Source: Streptomyces sp. NBC_01497
Lineage (GTDB): Bacteria > Actinomycetota > Actinomycetes > Streptomycetales > Streptomycetaceae
Direction: 5' to 3'
DNA length: 64,000 nt
NCBI RefSeq assembly: GCF_036250695.1
Contig: NZ_CP109427.1
Location: 8,432,001-8,496,000 of the forward strand
A model generated the notes under the pieces. That model was not told the DNA's origin. It made no database searches and worked only from the letters and a program-made list of their open reading frames with translations. The position numbers and the translations under genes are program-made. Numbering within the stretch: position 1 is the stretch's first letter; every line of letters begins with the position of its first letter. Positions 716 to 45,461 of this stretch are shown one piece after another.

Positions 716-2016
716 GCCGCTACGACGGTGAGCGGGTGGTCTCAGAGGCGGTGGAACTCGCCGGAGGGATGCACACCACGGACGCCCCCTACCCGCCGGT
801 CTGGCTTTCCCAGCCGCGGTTCGAGCACATCCTGCGCGAGCGCCTGGCCGAGCTCGGCGGAACCATCCGCTGGGGAAGCCAGGTCACCGACCTCCAGCAG
901 GACGACGACGGCGTCACCGCCACCATCGAGACCACGGCCGGGCCCGACGCGGGCGTAAGCGTCGTCCACGCCCGCTACGTCGTCGGTGCCGACGGCGGAC
1001 GCAGCACCGTCCGCGCACTGGCCGGCATCGCACTGCACGGCACCTCCCTGACCGACCAGCGCTGGCACCTGGGCGACGTACGCGTCACCGGCCTCTCCCG
1101 CCACTGCCAGCACCTGTGGACCAGCAAGAAGGACGGCCTACTGTCCCTGTTCCCGCTGCCCGGAACCGACCTGTGGCAGTTCCAGGCCTCCATTCCCGCC
1201 GACCGGGCCGAGCCCGAGGAGCCGTCGCTTGAGCTGTTCCGCCGCATCTTCACCGAGCGCGCAGGAGTCCCCGGCGTGGTCATCCAGGACGTCTCATGGC
1301 TCTCCCTCTACCGGATCAACGTGGTCCTGGCTGACCACTACCGCTCCGGGCGGATCCTCCTGGCCGGCGACGCGGCGCACATCCACTCCCCAGCCGGCGG
1401 CCAGGGCATGAACACCGGCATCCAGGATGCCTACAACCTCGGCTGGAAGTTCGCCGCCCTCCTCGACGGCGCGGACCCGGCCCTGCTCGACACCTACGAG
1501 CACGAACGCCGCCCCGTCGCCCGCAACGTCCTGGACGACAGCACAACCCGCCTGGAAAACGTGATGCGCGCGGCAGCCGAGAGCGAAGGCGCCTCCGCCC
1601 AGCAGGGGCTCACCGACGACCACACCACCGGCTTGGGCATCTCCTACGCTGACAGCCCGCTCACCCACGGTCCCGGCGCGGGGGTCCGCGCCCCCGACGC
1701 ACCCTGCCGCGATGCCGAGACCGGCCGCCCCACCCGGCTGTTCGACCTGCTGCGCGGCCCCCACTGGACCCTGCTCTCCTTCGGGGGCACCGTCGTCCAG
1801 CAGGCCCCGGGCGGTCCGCGTATCGTCCGGGTGAGCACCGACCTGGCCGCCAACGATGCCGGCGCCGTCATCGACACCGACGACATCGCCCACCACGCCT
1901 ATGGAGTCACCGGCGACGAACTCGTCCTCATCCGCCCCGACGGCTACATCGCCGCCCGCCGCCCCGCCCACGACCTGCCCGGGGTTCTCGCCCTGGCGGC
2001 CACCAACGGCCTGTGA
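700..2016 (+). pseudogene. FAD-dependent aromatic monooxygenase, N-terminus lost
   Basis: The C-terminal three quarters of a PheA/TfdB-type flavin monooxygenase (family including phenol hydroxylases and rifampicin monooxygenase). Visible features are a DG-type motif (YVVGADGGRSTVRALAGI), the FAD-ribityl motif LLAGDAAHIHSPAGGQGMN near the middle, and the typical C-terminal phrase LIRPDGYIAARRP. The N-terminal GxGxxG dinucleotide-binding fold is missing, and the reading frame runs straight back into the IS21 end. The frame is open upstream to 268, but that part is read across the insertion sequence and is not the gene. A GTG at 700 lies inside the IS terminal repeat, and any product from it could not bind FAD normally. 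Confidence 0.75.
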
Positions 2017-2119
2017 CCCGCCGAGCAGGACGCGCGGCGGACAGAACCGAAAGTCAGCGATCCTCCGCGACATCGCCGGATGATCCGGGGCGCCGGACCC
2101 ACGAAGCTGACCCTTGTCA

Positions 2120-2240
2120 TCAGTGGATGCTGATGCCAGGTGCGAGCAGGCTGGTGAGCTCGGCGATCGCCCCCCGAGGTGGGGCTTGAAGGGGCGGCGG
2201 ACGTTCTCCGTCCTGTTGTGCCTCGCCTTGGCCATCAGCA
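2120..2240 (-). pseudogene. Tyrosine-recombinase/integrase C-terminal remnant
   Basis: On the minus strand ARHNRTENVRRPFKP is followed, after a frame change, by AIAELTSLLAPG and a stop. This resembles the last about 35 residues of Streptomyces site-specific integrases. Only the tail survives and it is frameshifted. The family match is from memory and rests on a short stretch. Confidence 0.4.
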
Positions 2241-3179
2241 TCAGCAGGGCTCGCCCCGGCCCCGCCGAGGTGCGTCAAGCCCGGAGTGGCGCCACTCGTG
2301 GAGGTCTCCGCCTGCCCCAGGCCCGTGGACCGCGGTGTGCTCGTCCAGCAGCGCGCGAGCCCGGCCGTAGGCGGCCGGGCAAGGCCGGTGTCCGGGCGGC
2401 CGACTCACGCGAGCCGGCCGACAGCCTTGCCGGGCCCTGGGCGCCGGGGGGCGACGAACCCGCCCCTGGGCGCGGCGCTTGGGCAGTCACGGCAGGAGGG
2501 CCGTGCCGCCTCCCAGCACACGGTCCCCAGCGAGAAGTCCTTGCGCCTGGCCGCTGCGTCGAACCGTGCGCTGGGCCCACCTTGCCTCAACGGACAGCGG
2601 CGGCCGGCCACGTCCAGGTGCTCGACGTCGACCTCTATCCTTCTCTCTCGCAGGTTCACCTCCCGGCGAGGGATCAGCCGGTCGATCGCCACTTCGACTG
2701 GGCCGAGGTGTCGGAGTCCGGCGCGGTGACCGCTTCGCCCACGCCGGAACCGCCCGCCCGCCGCGCCCACTCCATGCCCGGTTTCCGTAGCGTGCCCGGT
2801 AGTGCGGGGGTGAGCTTCGCCTGGCGCAGGTCTTCGAATCCTGTACGCGAGCTTCACCCTGGCCGGGCTCGACCTGGCCGTCGACCGTGATTGGTTCAGT
2901 GCGTCCGCGGGGTACCGGCCGGCCGGAGCCTTCGCGAAGGTGGGCACCCGCGCGGGCGTCAGGAGGCGGCTGTCCACGGTCGGCTCGGCCCTGTGTCCCG
3001 CCGGCGGCCCATTGACGCGCGCACCTGCTTCCCCAGCAGTTCGTCCACCGTCGTGCACGTTGCCTGCAGCGGGGTGAACTCAAGCAGGATGAAGCCGGCA
3101 GACGAGCACGCACCCCGGGCTGCGCCGTGGAGCCTGTCGCGACAGGCACGGTCCGCGACGGGGCTCCCCGTGTCCGACT
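2241..3179. other. No supported gene
   Basis: Several long open frames exist on both strands but all overlap each other, lack recognisable motifs and have biased, arginine/proline-rich composition. It looks like decayed coding sequence. A plus-strand stretch near 2839-3010 reads as plausible protein (LYASFTLAGLDLAVDRDWFS) but is interrupted and unidentified. Confidence 0.5.
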
Positions 3180-41565: not shown

Positions 41566-41650
41566 CGGGTGGGTAGTTGGTGCGGGGGAGGGGTGTGGGC
41601 TGGGGTGTTGGTGGTTGGGTGAGAAGGGTGGTGGGGTGGACCTTGGTGGT
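41566..41650 (+). repeat. G/T-rich tract with many GGG runs
   Basis: About 85 bases of the plus strand are almost all G and T with repeated GGG and GGGG runs, an extreme strand asymmetry for this window. It could form G-quadruplexes. It lies just before the 5' end of the group II intron. Confidence 0.6.
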
Positions 41651-42265
41651 CTTGTGTCCTGAACATGAAAGGGAGTTGGTTGTAGGACCGCTTCTGGAAA
41701 TGGTGCTGTGCGAAAGATGAAGGTATGGCCCTTCAGAGTCGCCCTGCGGGGGGAGGCTCTAAACCGCCTCATGCTGCGTTGGCTGAAGACCGTCGTGGTG
41801 AGCGATGAGGAGAAGGCGTCGTAAGAGGCGTCAGGTGGGGATCGGAAAGGCGAACGCAAGTGAATCGCTGCTGACGTGTCGAAAAAGATAAAGACGGCAT
41901 CGAAACCGGGGTGTGACCACTATCCCGGGATGAGCCTGGCGGGTTCCCGTTTATTGGCCAGGTGGTGTCCGGCATGTAGGTGACGCGAGTCCGGTCTGCT
42001 GCTTTCGTACGGAACAGGAGAAGGCAGGTCCCGATACTGCCCGGTGGGTAGTGGGCGAGAGGAAGTACCCCGAGCAGCAGAAACTGTGAGGGGCAGAGTA
42101 CCGACGCGGGGCCTGCTGGCGGACCGGTCCGTAGTAGTGATGAAGCCTCTTAACGGAGGTGGAGCGAAGGGGCCGGGTTGTTCGTGACTGAGTTGATCGC
42201 ATCAACCAGACAGTGAGCCTTTGCCAACTTGCGCCCGGTAGCGGCTCAGTTGGTTCGACACATGA

Positions 42266-42326
42266 GTGAAGCCTCTGGTAGACGGGTTCACGACCAAGAT
42301 CACCCGATACCCACCAGAGGCTTCAC
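42266..42326 (+). promoter_or_regulatory. Hairpin that buries the transposase ribosome site
   Basis: GTGAAGCCTCTGGT (42266-42279) pairs perfectly with ACCAGAGGCTTCAC (42313-42326). The 3' arm contains the GAGG ribosome site and ends immediately before the GTG start codon at 42327. Transcripts reading in from outside would fold this and block translation, a known safeguard in other IS elements. Confidence 0.65.
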
Positions 42327-43097
42327 GTGCTTGTCTACCGGTGCGGGCTGGACGTGTCCAGTCGGTCCTTGACGTACCTCGCCACTCGTCTGCGCGAACA
42401 CCGTCGCCGGATCGGAAGCCGCTGGCGCCGGCTATCGGTCAGCCGTCAAGCTCTGCTGGTGTTGGCGCATCTGCGCAACGGGACTACGTACGCCCAGCTC
42501 GCAGCGGGTTTCGAGATTGGGACGAGCACGGTCTACCGCTACATCAGCGAGGCCGTCGACCTCCTGGCCGCCCTCGCACCGACCCTCGACGAGGCTGTCC
42601 AAGCCGCATCGACGAAGGCTTACGTCCTGCTCGACGGGACTCTCCTGCCCATCGACCGGATCGCTGCCGACCGGCCCTACTACTCCGGCAAGCACAAGGG
42701 ACACGGCATGAACGTGCAGGTCATCGCCGACCCGTTCGGCCGGCTGCTGTGGGCCTCGCCGGCACTGCCTGGGGCCGTCCACGACGTTCGCGCAGCCCGG
42801 GAACACGGCATCATCGATGCTCTTGACCAGGCCCACCTCCCCTGCTGGGCGGACAAGGGCTACCAAGGCGCCGGCGGCACGATCCGGGTCCCCTTCCGCG
42901 GCCGATGGGAGGCTCTCTCCGCCGGTCAGCAGGCCGTGAACCGATCTCAGGCCAAGATCCGAGCCCTCGTCGAGCAAGCCATGGCCACCCTCAAGTCCTG
43001 GCGACTACTCCGCAAACTTCGCTGCTCGACCACACGCATCACCGGCCTCGTCCAGGCCGTACTCACCCTGCATCACGCCAGCTCAACCGCAGGTTGA
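42327..43097 (+). CDS. IS5-family (DDE_Tnp_4) transposase, intact
   Basis: 256 residues. N-terminal HTH: LRNGTTYAQLAAGFEIGTST then VYRYISEAVDLL. DDE domain: VLLDGTLLPIDRIAADRPYY (first Asp), LPGAVHDVRAAREHGI (second Asp) and ALVEQAMATLKSWRLLRKL (Glu). GTG 42327 is the start. No frameshift or stop is seen, so this element may still be active. It is nested in a group II intron, so it arrived after the intron. Confidence 0.88.
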   Translation: MLVYRCGLDVSSRSLTYLATRLREHRRRIGSRWRRLSVSRQALLVLAHLRNGTTYAQLAAGFEIGTSTVYRYISEAVDLLAALAPTLDEAVQAASTKAYVLLDGTLLPIDRIAADRPYYSGKHKGHGMNVQVIADPFGRLLWASPALPGAVHDVRAAREHGIIDALDQAHLPCWADKGYQGAGGTIRVPFRGRWEALSAGQQAVNRSQAKIRALVEQAMATLKSWRLLRKLRCSTTRITGLVQAVLTLHHASSTAG

Positions 43098-44295
43098 AAA
43101 AGCCTCAGTGTCTGGGAGGAGTTCGGTGAGCCAGTTGAAGTCTCAGATCAAGCCGTTTGATGTTTCTAAGTGGGAAGTCAAGGAGGCGTGGGAGGAAGTC
43201 AGAGCGAACAGAGGCGCGCCCGGCGTGGACGGCCAGAGTATCGACGCGTTCGAGAAATACCTGAAGAGTAATCTGTACAAGGTCTGGAACCGCATGTCAT
43301 CGGGCTCCTACTTCCCGCCTCCGGTGCGTGCGGTTGCTATTCCCAAGTCGCACGGAAATGGAACGAGGATGCTCGGCATTCCCGCCGTCTCCGACCGTGT
43401 GGCTCAGACCGTTGTGGCACGGCATCTGATGCGGAGGGTGGAGCCTATTTTCCATCCAGACAGCTATGGATATCGGCCAGGTCGGTCCGCTTTGGACGCG
43501 GTAGGGAAGTGCCGGGAACGCTGCTGGAAGCGGGACTGGGTGATGGAGTTCGACATCACCAAGTTCTTCGACAGCGTGCCCTGGGACCTGCTGGTCAAGG
43601 CGGTGGATGCGCACACCGACGCCGTCTGGGTGAAACTATATGTCCGGCGTTGGCTCAAAGCCCCGCTGGCCATGCCCGATGGCACTCTGCTGCAACGGGA
43701 ACGCGGAACCCCGCAAGGGGCTCCAGTTTCTCCTGTGTTGGCGAACCTGTTCCTGCACTACGCGTTCGACACCTGGATGGCACGGGAGTTCCCGAACATC
43801 TGGTTCGAGCGGTATGCGGACGATGCAGTCTTGCACTGCGTCACCGAGCGCCAGGCCCGGACGGTGCTGGCCGCGCTCGTGGACAGGATGGCTGAGGTCG
43901 GGCTGCACCTGCACCCGGACAAGACCCGGATTTTGCAGGGACGGACGACGCCAAAGAGCATTCGAGCATACGGCGTTCACCTTCCTCGGATACACGTTCC
44001 GAGCCAGACAGAACCAGGATCGATACGGCAAGTCATTCCAGTCGTTCGACCCCGCTGTCAGCAAAGACGCCCTGAAGAAGATGGGACGGGAAGTGCGGTC
44101 TTGGCGTTTGCACACCCGGTCCGATCTGTCCTTCCGAGAGCTTGCCCGAAGGACCAACCCTGTCGTGGCCGGCTGGATCAACTACTACGGACGGTTCAGA
44201 CCGTGGGAGCTGAATCCCTTCTTGATGCGTATCAACTCCTATCTGGTGCGCTGGATCCGCCAGAAGTACAAACGGCTTGCGGCCGAACGGAAAGC

Positions 44296-44850
44296 TGAGC
44301 CGAGGCGCGATGATTGACACCAAGGCAGCCTTGGTGTCACTCCGCGTCGAAGCCTGGCTCTGCCGAGGACTTGGTTCTGGCAACGCCGGTGCACGCCAGT
44401 ACTGCGGTAGCGGCGGCGTTGAGGAAGAGCATGAATGTCCAGGACGCGTCCGCAGTGTCGATGCGCCCGATACGGATGGGCTTTTCAGCTGCCTGGGAGA
44501 GGAGGTCGACGGTGGCGGAGAGGGCCAGCGTCGGCTGTCCGCGCTTTTGGGTGGAGCGGAGCCGGCCCCGGTAGATGCCTGCGAGCTCATTGGCGGGAAC
44601 CAGGCCATCCCAGACGATGAAGGTCCCCCCGGTGATCAACGCGTCGCGCGCAGGGCCACATGCGGTCGTCTGCTCGCCGAGCATGTCGGTCAGGTCGTCG
44701 CGTATCACACCGCGGCCGGGTGGCAGGAGAGCCGCTGATGCAGAGTCTGTGACAAGTGGCCTGCCTTCCAGGTGACAACCAGGCTGCTTCGACCCGGTCT
44801 TTCGCCAGCGTAATCGGCTTTGCCGGTGACAACCATCGTGCTTCGGCAGA
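44296..44850. mobile_element. 555-bp element with 5-bp target duplication
   Basis: Flanked by AAAGC at 44291-44295 and 44851-44855. The ends match inversely at 20 of the first 26 positions (TGAGCCGAGGCGCGATG versus TCTGCCGAAGCACGATG). Removing it plus one AAAGC restores the maturase frame exactly (RLAAERKA then IAKMLEIAQRYPRM), which proves insertion. The right end has three TTGTCAC-type direct repeats; the left end has a 10-bp hairpin (GACACCAAGG-CAG-CCTTGGTGTC). No transposase is encoded, so it moved with help from elsewhere. Family not recognised. Confidence 0.8.
44337..44708 (-). CDS. Hypothetical protein carried by the 555-bp element
   Basis: 123 residues from GTG 44708 (VIRDDLTDMLGEQTT), middle TFIVWDGLVPANELAGIYRG, end SWTFMLFLNAAATAVLACTG then a stop. 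Composition is protein-like but no family is recognised. It fills two thirds of the mobile element. It could be a captured gene piece or a real passenger. Confidence 0.4.
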   Translation of the reverse strand: MIRDDLTDMLGEQTTACGPARDALITGGTFIVWDGLVPANELAGIYRGRLRSTQKRGQPTLALSATVDLLSQAAEKPIRIGRIDTADASWTFMLFLNAAATAVLACTGVARTKSSAEPGFDAE

Positions 44851-44955
44851 AAAGCCATCGCGAAAATGCTGGAGATCGCCCAGCGATACCCCCGCATGTT
44901 CGCGCACTGGCGCTGCACCGTCGCAGCTGTGATGACCTGACGATCAGAACGACAA

Positions 44956-44989
44956 GAGCCGTGTAACGGGAGACTGTTACGCACGGTTC
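44956..44989 (+). ncRNA. Group II intron domain V
   Basis: 34 nt, GAGCCGTG ... CACGGTTC, with an internal TAACG/TGTTACG stem and GGAGAC loop. The AGC catalytic triad lies in the 5' strand (AGCC). The placement 15 nt after the maturase stop and just before the domain VI stem is canonical. Confidence 0.88.
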
Positions 44990-45024
44990 TGTGAGAGCCG
45001 GGAGGTGAGATTCCTCCCGGCTAC

Positions 45025-45461
45025 TCGGCAGTCCGTTTCGCGAGCGCCCCTGCGCCTGGCGAGCCACTGCGTGTGCGCGCCTGATCGCACAGTCGATCAG
45101 GGAGCAGGGCCGGCAGACGCCTGCTGGGTGAGCGGGCACGGCTGGCAGAGGCTGCCGGGTCGCCCCCGGACCTGGCGTCCCGGGTCGTCCCTCGGACGTG
45201 GAGTCCGGGGGGGGGAACCCCCGGTTCGGCGCGGTCCGGCCGGGAGGTGGCAAGTGTCGTAGCCCGCGACCGACCGGGTCGGCCGACGCCCCTGGCCGGC
45301 GGCATCCGGCCGCACCCGGTCCGTCGCGACCGGACGCCCCCGCGCCTGCCGCGAGGGACTCCTGGCGTGCGTGTGGGGTGTCCGGCGATGAGTTCTGGTG
45401 CCTACAAGCTGTCTGCACAACGGGAAGCGCTCCGATCACAACTCAGAGGCAGGTGGCATTT
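45025..45461. other. No supported gene; 9-G run
   Basis: Downstream exon of the intron. Nine G in a row at 45207-45215 face five C, a small hairpin. No recognisable protein on either strand. Confidence 0.4.

Follow-up and report, generated by a model that had tools for sequence, protein, structure and literature searches.

In group II introns the first and the penultimate base interact after lariat formation, and the intron boundaries follow the consensus GUGYG...AY, according to the parts of PMC4238363 and PMC3669008 available to us. Both papers cite Chanfreau and Jacquier (1993) for this contact, which is held to serve the second splicing step; that study is known to us through these citing papers. 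Among Tn7-like transposons, an Actinobacteria-dominated clade has been described in PMC8649781, which, in the sections we consulted, does not speak of members lacking the core genes. We analyzed 64,000 nt of Streptomyces sp. NBC_01497 (contig NZ_CP109427.1, positions 8,432,001 to 8,496,000 of the forward strand; hereafter, the window), in which a group II intron with unusual boundaries contains two other mobile elements. Our reading, to which we assign a probability of about 0.86, is that this intron lies in a transposase gene, received both elements later, belongs to a lineage whose first and penultimate bases are coupled, and carries a miniature Tn7-like element that was probably moved in trans. 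Coordinates are window positions, and features are on the plus strand unless stated otherwise.

The intron occupies 41652-45029 (3378 nt), starting with TTGTG and ending with GC. Its limits were obtained from relatives. A search of genome contigs with the reverse transcriptase (RT) part confirmed 218 stretches, from which 80 loci were kept, and after alignment and side-by-side comparison of flanks, homology began at 41652 and stopped at 45029 where the outer flanks were unrelated; the joined flanks of relatives were also used to set the ends. Rfam model RF01999 matched 41719-41836 (103.5 bits, gathering threshold 36), which is 118 nt of the D1-D4 region rather than all of it, and RF00029 matched domains V and VI at 44954-45029 (59.5 bits, gathering threshold 40). 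An initial annotation, made from the sequence alone, had proposed a covariance-model check with both insertions removed; these matches, found at both intron ends, were obtained with the insertions still in place. Read by eye, the branch point is probably A45023 (seventh base counted from the 3' end). Among solved structures the GsI-IIC RT was the best match, which does not fix the intron class. With boundaries of UUGUG...GC, the intron departs from the GUGYG...AY consensus, and we consider it a boundary variant because the remaining group II features are present. The same combination, U as the first base (U1) and a penultimate G, was found in 24 other distinct relatives.

The initial annotation had recognized the group II intron and placed its maturase, domain V and domain VI, in agreement with the RVT_1, GIIM and RF00029 matches, but it had set the limits at 41708..45024. 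The last base is C45029, and the 5' end was misplaced by 56 nt. If the intron began at the GTGCG at 41708, the preceding 56 nt would be exon, the start would agree with GUGYG, and it would be unsurprising that the Rfam match begins only at 41719. However, the 56 nt are conserved next to unrelated flanks, even between copies within one genome, transposase frames are restored by joining flanks with the start at 41652, and nested intron copies begin at the equivalent base. A start at 41708 is thus exceedingly improbable and was rejected on the homology limits in relatives with unrelated flanks; homology starts at T41652, and the GTGCG is internal to the intron.

Both ends were readable in 57 of the 81 members of the first set (80 loci and the window). 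Two further genome searches, with matches in 51 of 392 and 52 of 297 genomes, supplied 40 more stretches, of which 28 passed. The 85 introns comprised 29 with U/G as first and penultimate base, 49 with G/A, and 7 with G/C (L046, L071, L075, L078, L081, L082, and L084), corresponding to 25, 42, and 6 of the 73 distinct introns. Among the latter, U1 was accompanied by a penultimate G in 25 of 25 cases and G1 by A or C in 48 of 48, so that no exception was present in the introns kept. A tree of 70 introns was then constructed, from which the first eight bases, the 3' end, and three rows with long branches had been excluded. Nine changes were needed on this tree for either base, and nine independent pairs were obtained when all branches were used. 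A tree of 57 introns gave five changes per trait and five agreeing pairs.

Shared descent, rather than compensation, might link the two bases, since many U1 introns are close kin and the well-supported branches of the tree of 70 yield only four independent pairs. We regard this as unlikely, given that each base changed nine times on the best tree, including once in the distant pair L073/L074, which is also U/G, that the 73 distinct introns held no exception, and that the bases being compared were excluded from the tree. Several observations nevertheless weigh against the coupling of the two bases. The four pairs on well-supported branches all agree (4/4), but are too few to reach p 0.05, and 19 of 65 inner branches of the same tree are open. 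Before the count, 36 of 121 rows were dropped, and one row that was counted as U/G, L241, has an odd 3' end. Two of the dropped rows, L231 and L246, both longer than 3 kb, read U1 with a penultimate A. The apparent exception in L246 is explained by nesting, with an inner intron at 1109-3047 that has U1 and a terminal GC. In L231 a single 3' end was located, with none for the inner intron, and this row still reads as an exception. Our literature search returned nothing on intron ends with U1 and a penultimate G (UUGYG).

Nesting was found in other relatives as well. Copies L233, L245, and L259 lie in domain I of another intron, at position 135 or slightly before, and five other relatives show this site unbroken. 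Because the sequence of the unbroken site is known, the ends of the nested copies are fixed as TTGTG...CTCGGC without sliding. U1-type introns were nested at the same domain I site in loci from four genomes, with the joins verified in three; L246 looks multiply nested, and the inner start in L231 is at 501.

Uninterrupted relatives, which the initial annotation had proposed as a means of setting the exon junctions, were found, and their joined flanks gave transposase frames. Joining the flanks of the window intron gives RSRNGL|TTKVHP on the minus strand, and the joined flanks of its nearest relative, L220, contain the same motif (GRSRGGL|TTKIHLASD). The 5' exon (41634-41651, minus strand, TTKVHP) and the 3' exon (45030-45107, minus strand, CSLIDCAIRRAHAVARQAQGRSRNGL), both delimited by joining the flanks, are the two sides of one remnant, and the intron sits antisense in this IS5-type transposase gene, close to one end of a linear Streptomyces chromosome. 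Against this identification, the 57-aa remnant itself had no Pfam or NCBIfam family match. Flanks were joined for 31 loci, and eight frames that were long or transposase-like were scanned with Pfam. A transposase or integrase match crossed the junction in six of these, L009 and L011 with U1 introns and L016, L021, L026, and L029 with G1 introns. In L009 the DDE_Tnp_1 match starts at residue 94 and the junction is at 99, an overlap of five residues, while in L011 a DDE_3 match extends across the junction. The match in L024 was confined to one side, and the joined frame of L081 had no Pfam match. Because the 23 other joins were outside the scan, and many of their frames look meaningless, we do not claim that every copy sits in a transposase gene.

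The order of events was read from the relatives. L220, which comes from another genome of the genus and is 1927 nt long, crosses both insertion sites uninterrupted, with 96.7, 93.1, and 92.4% identity to the window intron in three pieces. Subtracting both insertions from the window intron leaves 1923 nt (3378 - 895 - 560), close to L220 and in keeping with the normal size that the initial annotation had expected. Length was at most 2100 nt in 52 of the 56 first-set relatives, for which it was no selection condition; the 28 second-set relatives were selected for 1800-2300 nt, and the median of 1932 nt over all 84 leans on that condition. At each site, 11 to 13 aligned relatives run uninterrupted across the insertion point, and no BLAST piece from the 80 loci (E 1e-5, pieces >30 nt) lay inside either inserted segment. 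It could be argued that the intron family naturally carries both segments, as the four relatives above 2100 nt among the 56 not selected for length indicate that it takes up DNA. This is refuted by the sequences seen, with L220 and the other relatives lacking the segments at both sites and the BLAST search finding neither, and we give it practically no credence. Homologous introns thus cross both sites without the segments, and the intron predates both insertions, because both target duplications consist of copied intron sequence. The overall architecture and the intron-first order given by the initial annotation were upheld.

The first insertion is an 892-bp IS5-family element at 42215-43106, delimited by the ends it has in common with other genomic copies. 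It encodes a 256-aa transposase in an open frame at 42327-43097 (NF033581, 5.6e-42; DDE_Tnp_4, 5.8e-27), and its score with NF033581, a model of IS5-type transposases, was 144 bits against a cut-off of 140. The insertion sequence (IS) is inserted in the 3-nt loop of the hairpin preceding the maturase, which now reads CCAGAC-AGT...AGT-GTCTGG, where most relatives shown have CCGGAC-NNN-GTCCGG or a variant. Alignment with relatives and the other IS copies place the left arm at 42206-42211 (CCAGAC), the loop, which is also the first copy of the 3-bp duplication, at 42212-42214 (AGT), the second copy at 43107-43109 (AGT), and the right arm at 43110-43115 (GTCTGG). An apparently intact IS5-type element just upstream of the maturase had been noted initially, but its limits of 42206-43115 were rejected, since that range includes both arms of the intron hairpin. 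Equal ANT triplets flank six of the 10 IS copies viewed in the genome, including the window copy, and the AGT pair in the window fits the 3-bp ANT target duplication that marks the ISL2 group of the IS5 family. The arrival of the IS may be recent, because it has a copy elsewhere in this genome with 99.3% identity across 902 bases. Copies of this IS5-type family are also frequent on the second contig of 529 kb (G000:C2), many of them fragmentary.

Beginning with GTG, the maturase runs as far as the second insertion (43126-44295; RVT_1, 3.6e-36; GIIM, 3.2e-16; TIGR04416), and its severed C-terminal end was placed at 44856-44940 by alignment with relatives, with the stop at 44938-44940 read from the sequence. 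A 5-nt net deletion near 43932, overlooked in the initial annotation, also breaks the frame, and the RVT_1 and GIIM domains fall in two frames. There was no endonuclease domain among the Pfam and NCBIfam matches of the maturase. An open frame of at least 400 aa, counted from stop to stop and with duplicates included, was found in 76 of 84 relatives; L220, like the window intron, has no full-length maturase frame (292 aa). By established intron anatomy the maturase region lies in domain IV. The insertions and the frameshift are in or beside the maturase, and therefore in domain IV, outside the catalytic core.

The whole nest (window 41652-45029 and G000:C1:8473652 onward) is present twice, a fact that the initial annotation had missed. 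The copies are identical in the stretches compared, and because their places on the 8.55-Mb contig are mirrored, we assign them to terminal inverted repeats. The maturase RT had no match in the genome besides this second copy at the opposite end of the chromosome. The window ribozyme may be sound but stranded, since the sole other maturase of its kind is the identical copy at the other end.

The second insertion, a 555-bp element with a 5-bp duplication in the maturase C-terminus, was located exactly by the initial annotation. It spans 44296-44850, between copies of AAAGC at 44291-44295 and 44851-44855 that were identified by alignment with relatives. Its left end is TGAGCC and its right end is GGCAGA, where the family has GGCTCA or GGCACA. 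The sole frame encodes a 123-aa protein of undescribed function (44337-44708, minus strand). A protein search with it gave 74 proteins, itself included, and the relatives that are named are 'hypothetical' or uncharacterized, with the exception of a single short response regulator match; neither Pfam nor NCBIfam matched the longer and overlapping frames of the element. The element contains no TnsA, TnsB, TnsC, or TniQ, and is thus a non-autonomous derivative and not a full Tn7-like transposon.

DNA matches to this element were detected in 75 of 295 genomes of the genus (window genome included), most of them partial and few end-to-end. Fourteen pairs of ends with equal 5-bp flanks represented 13 distinct elements (L123 = L130) of 556 to 2166 bp, and three of the 13 carry the 123-aa kind of gene. 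In shuffled DNA (220,020 bases), a comparable end score occurred three times. For ten other family elements and four without equal flanks, open frames were listed; no transposase was seen in the elements listed, and the family elements lack the length needed to hold the Tn7-like core genes. A scan of nine elements, with one protein taken from each, gave matches to LysR, alpha/beta hydrolases (L132 and L154), TetR, HEAT repeats, and a pyridoxamine-oxidase-like protein, with three having no match, and reading of the translations identified SDR, XRE/cupin, and monooxygenase neighbors. Such an arrangement recalls mobile insertion cassettes, in which element ends surround a passenger gene without a transposase. 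In two loci, cassettes stand side by side, six or five bases apart (L113:1501-3104 and L116:1395-3356), as if one had landed beside another. On the plasmid NZ_CP109267.1 (L201), a LysR and SDR pair that resembles the cargo of L129 is located beside a 43-base match to the right end of the element.

A candidate partner for these cassettes has the same ends. L167, a contig of 7037 bp that holds one of the TniQ hits from cassette-bearing genomes described below, has the ends of the 555-bp element at its two extremities, and its frames match TnsA, an integrase core (below cut-off), AAA/TniB, and TniQ. The left end of the window element aligned with the right end of L167 at 42 of 59 bases (score 22.0, against 9.5 for the best of 300 shuffles) and its right end with the left end of L167 at 88 of 127 bases (score 41.5; best shuffle, 10.0), while the remaining two pairings scored at or little above the shuffles. 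A plasmid search with the L167 TnsB returned 101 records, and the best match was a complete element of 8119 bp in Streptomyces nojiriensis (NZ_CP107888.1, L265), which has family ends, the duplication GTCGA, and annotated TnsA-like, transposase, AAA ATPase, TniQ, NUDIX, and GNAT genes. A related element, L266 (7282 bp), has other ends, its own core genes, and the duplication ACTCC; no pair of ends was found for L267 and L268. Among the plasmid cassette ends, H8 and H28 had no annotated TnsABC within 6 kb, and H1 had no annotation there. In L132, L133, and L144, TTGTCAC sites are at 19, 73/74, and 96/97 on one side and at 19 and 39 on the other, whereas L167 and four other cassettes listed miss one or more of these sites. 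The window element has three at its right end.

One may ask instead whether the 555-bp element is a miniature inverted-repeat transposable element derived from an IS, or a chance copy of a cellular gene, as it has neither a transposase nor a domain match and its right end departs from CA. We find this quite improbable, because its ends and duplication length agree with those of a complete TnsABC-TniQ transposon, and because the same ends flank unrelated genes elsewhere. We classify the element as a miniature Tn7-like transposon, perhaps no longer mobile, which was probably moved in trans by TnsA-TnsB-TnsC-TniQ machinery. Some results count against this assignment. Both exact TTGTCAC sites are absent from the left end, and the termini are TG on the left and, on the right, GA where the family has CA; for these reasons the element may no longer move. 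TniQ was sought in the 14 genomes holding family ends or elements and was found in nine (eight above cut-off), with no match in the other five, so that the partner need not be present now. The window genome does have TniQ matches, none of which is tied to a TnsB fitting the family ends. Separately, we observed that each end of both contigs of this genome has a TniQ-matching gene roughly 4 kb away, within an open frame of 1109 codons (G000:C1:3957-4379, C1:8548599-8549021, C2:3956-4378, and C2:524441-524863).

Taken together, the following course of events best explains the locus. A group II intron without an endonuclease domain, from a lineage in which the first and penultimate bases are U/G instead of G/A and switch together, inserted, presumably by retrohoming, antisense into an IS5-type transposase gene. 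Target duplications and uninterrupted relatives show that an IS5-family element later entered the hairpin loop that precedes the maturase, and that the miniature Tn7-like element entered the maturase C-terminus; the latter was probably mobilized in trans by TnsA-TnsB-TnsC-TniQ machinery. A small deletion also broke the maturase frame. The proposed order is fixed only in that the intron came first, with the IS, the 555-bp element, and the frameshift later. A point against the account as a whole is that we infer splicing and movement.

We consider it rather probable that joint switches between G/A and U/G took place up to nine times with the contact under selection, and that a large Streptomyces cassette family is moved in trans by TnsABC-TniQ. 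If so, the introns would be a natural experiment showing selection on the contact between first and penultimate base. Through the joint switch, a contact proposed from model introns can be tested on pairs found in nature, with a bearing on the reading of first and last bases in splicing at large. Carriage in such cassettes would account for the movement of small Streptomyces genes, frequently next to a regulator, that have no transposase of their own, and the cassettes would be a common vehicle for small genes of metabolism and regulation. Present at both chromosome ends, the nest plainly documents mobile elements serving as landing ground for each other.

The window intron resembles RmInt1 and other endonuclease-less bacterial introns, as far as these are covered in the parts of PMC4238363, PMC4496777, and PMC3552965 that we consulted, in having an RT/maturase without an endonuclease domain. 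RmInt1 is likewise found in insertion sequences, and its 3' end also deviates from AY. However, RmInt1 ends in CC, while the window lineage begins with U and ends in GC, and the usual RmInt1 target is an IS630-type element, in contrast to the several kinds of transposase gene found here. A group II intron of Methanosarcina mazei that is split by a transposase (PMC8919778, seen in part) is likewise interrupted by another element, but the window intron holds two unrelated elements with target duplications, as well as a frameshift. With the Tn7-like clade described in the excerpt of PMC8649781, the complete elements identified here share core genes and cargo, and L265 and L266 have 5-bp duplications; the 555-bp element is much smaller than core genes would require. 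By title or the start of the abstract, no literature on transposase-less Tn7-like elements in Streptomyces was found. The mobile insertion cassette literature, in the portion we saw, concerns other bacteria, whereas here a Tn7-like machinery of several genes is the likely partner. The jointly switching bases are those of the contact attributed to Chanfreau and Jacquier (1993) by the citing papers, and what differs here is repeated natural change within one family. The kinds of element are themselves known, and the variant seen here is an intron lineage with coupled non-consensus ends that carries a non-autonomous Tn7-like passenger.

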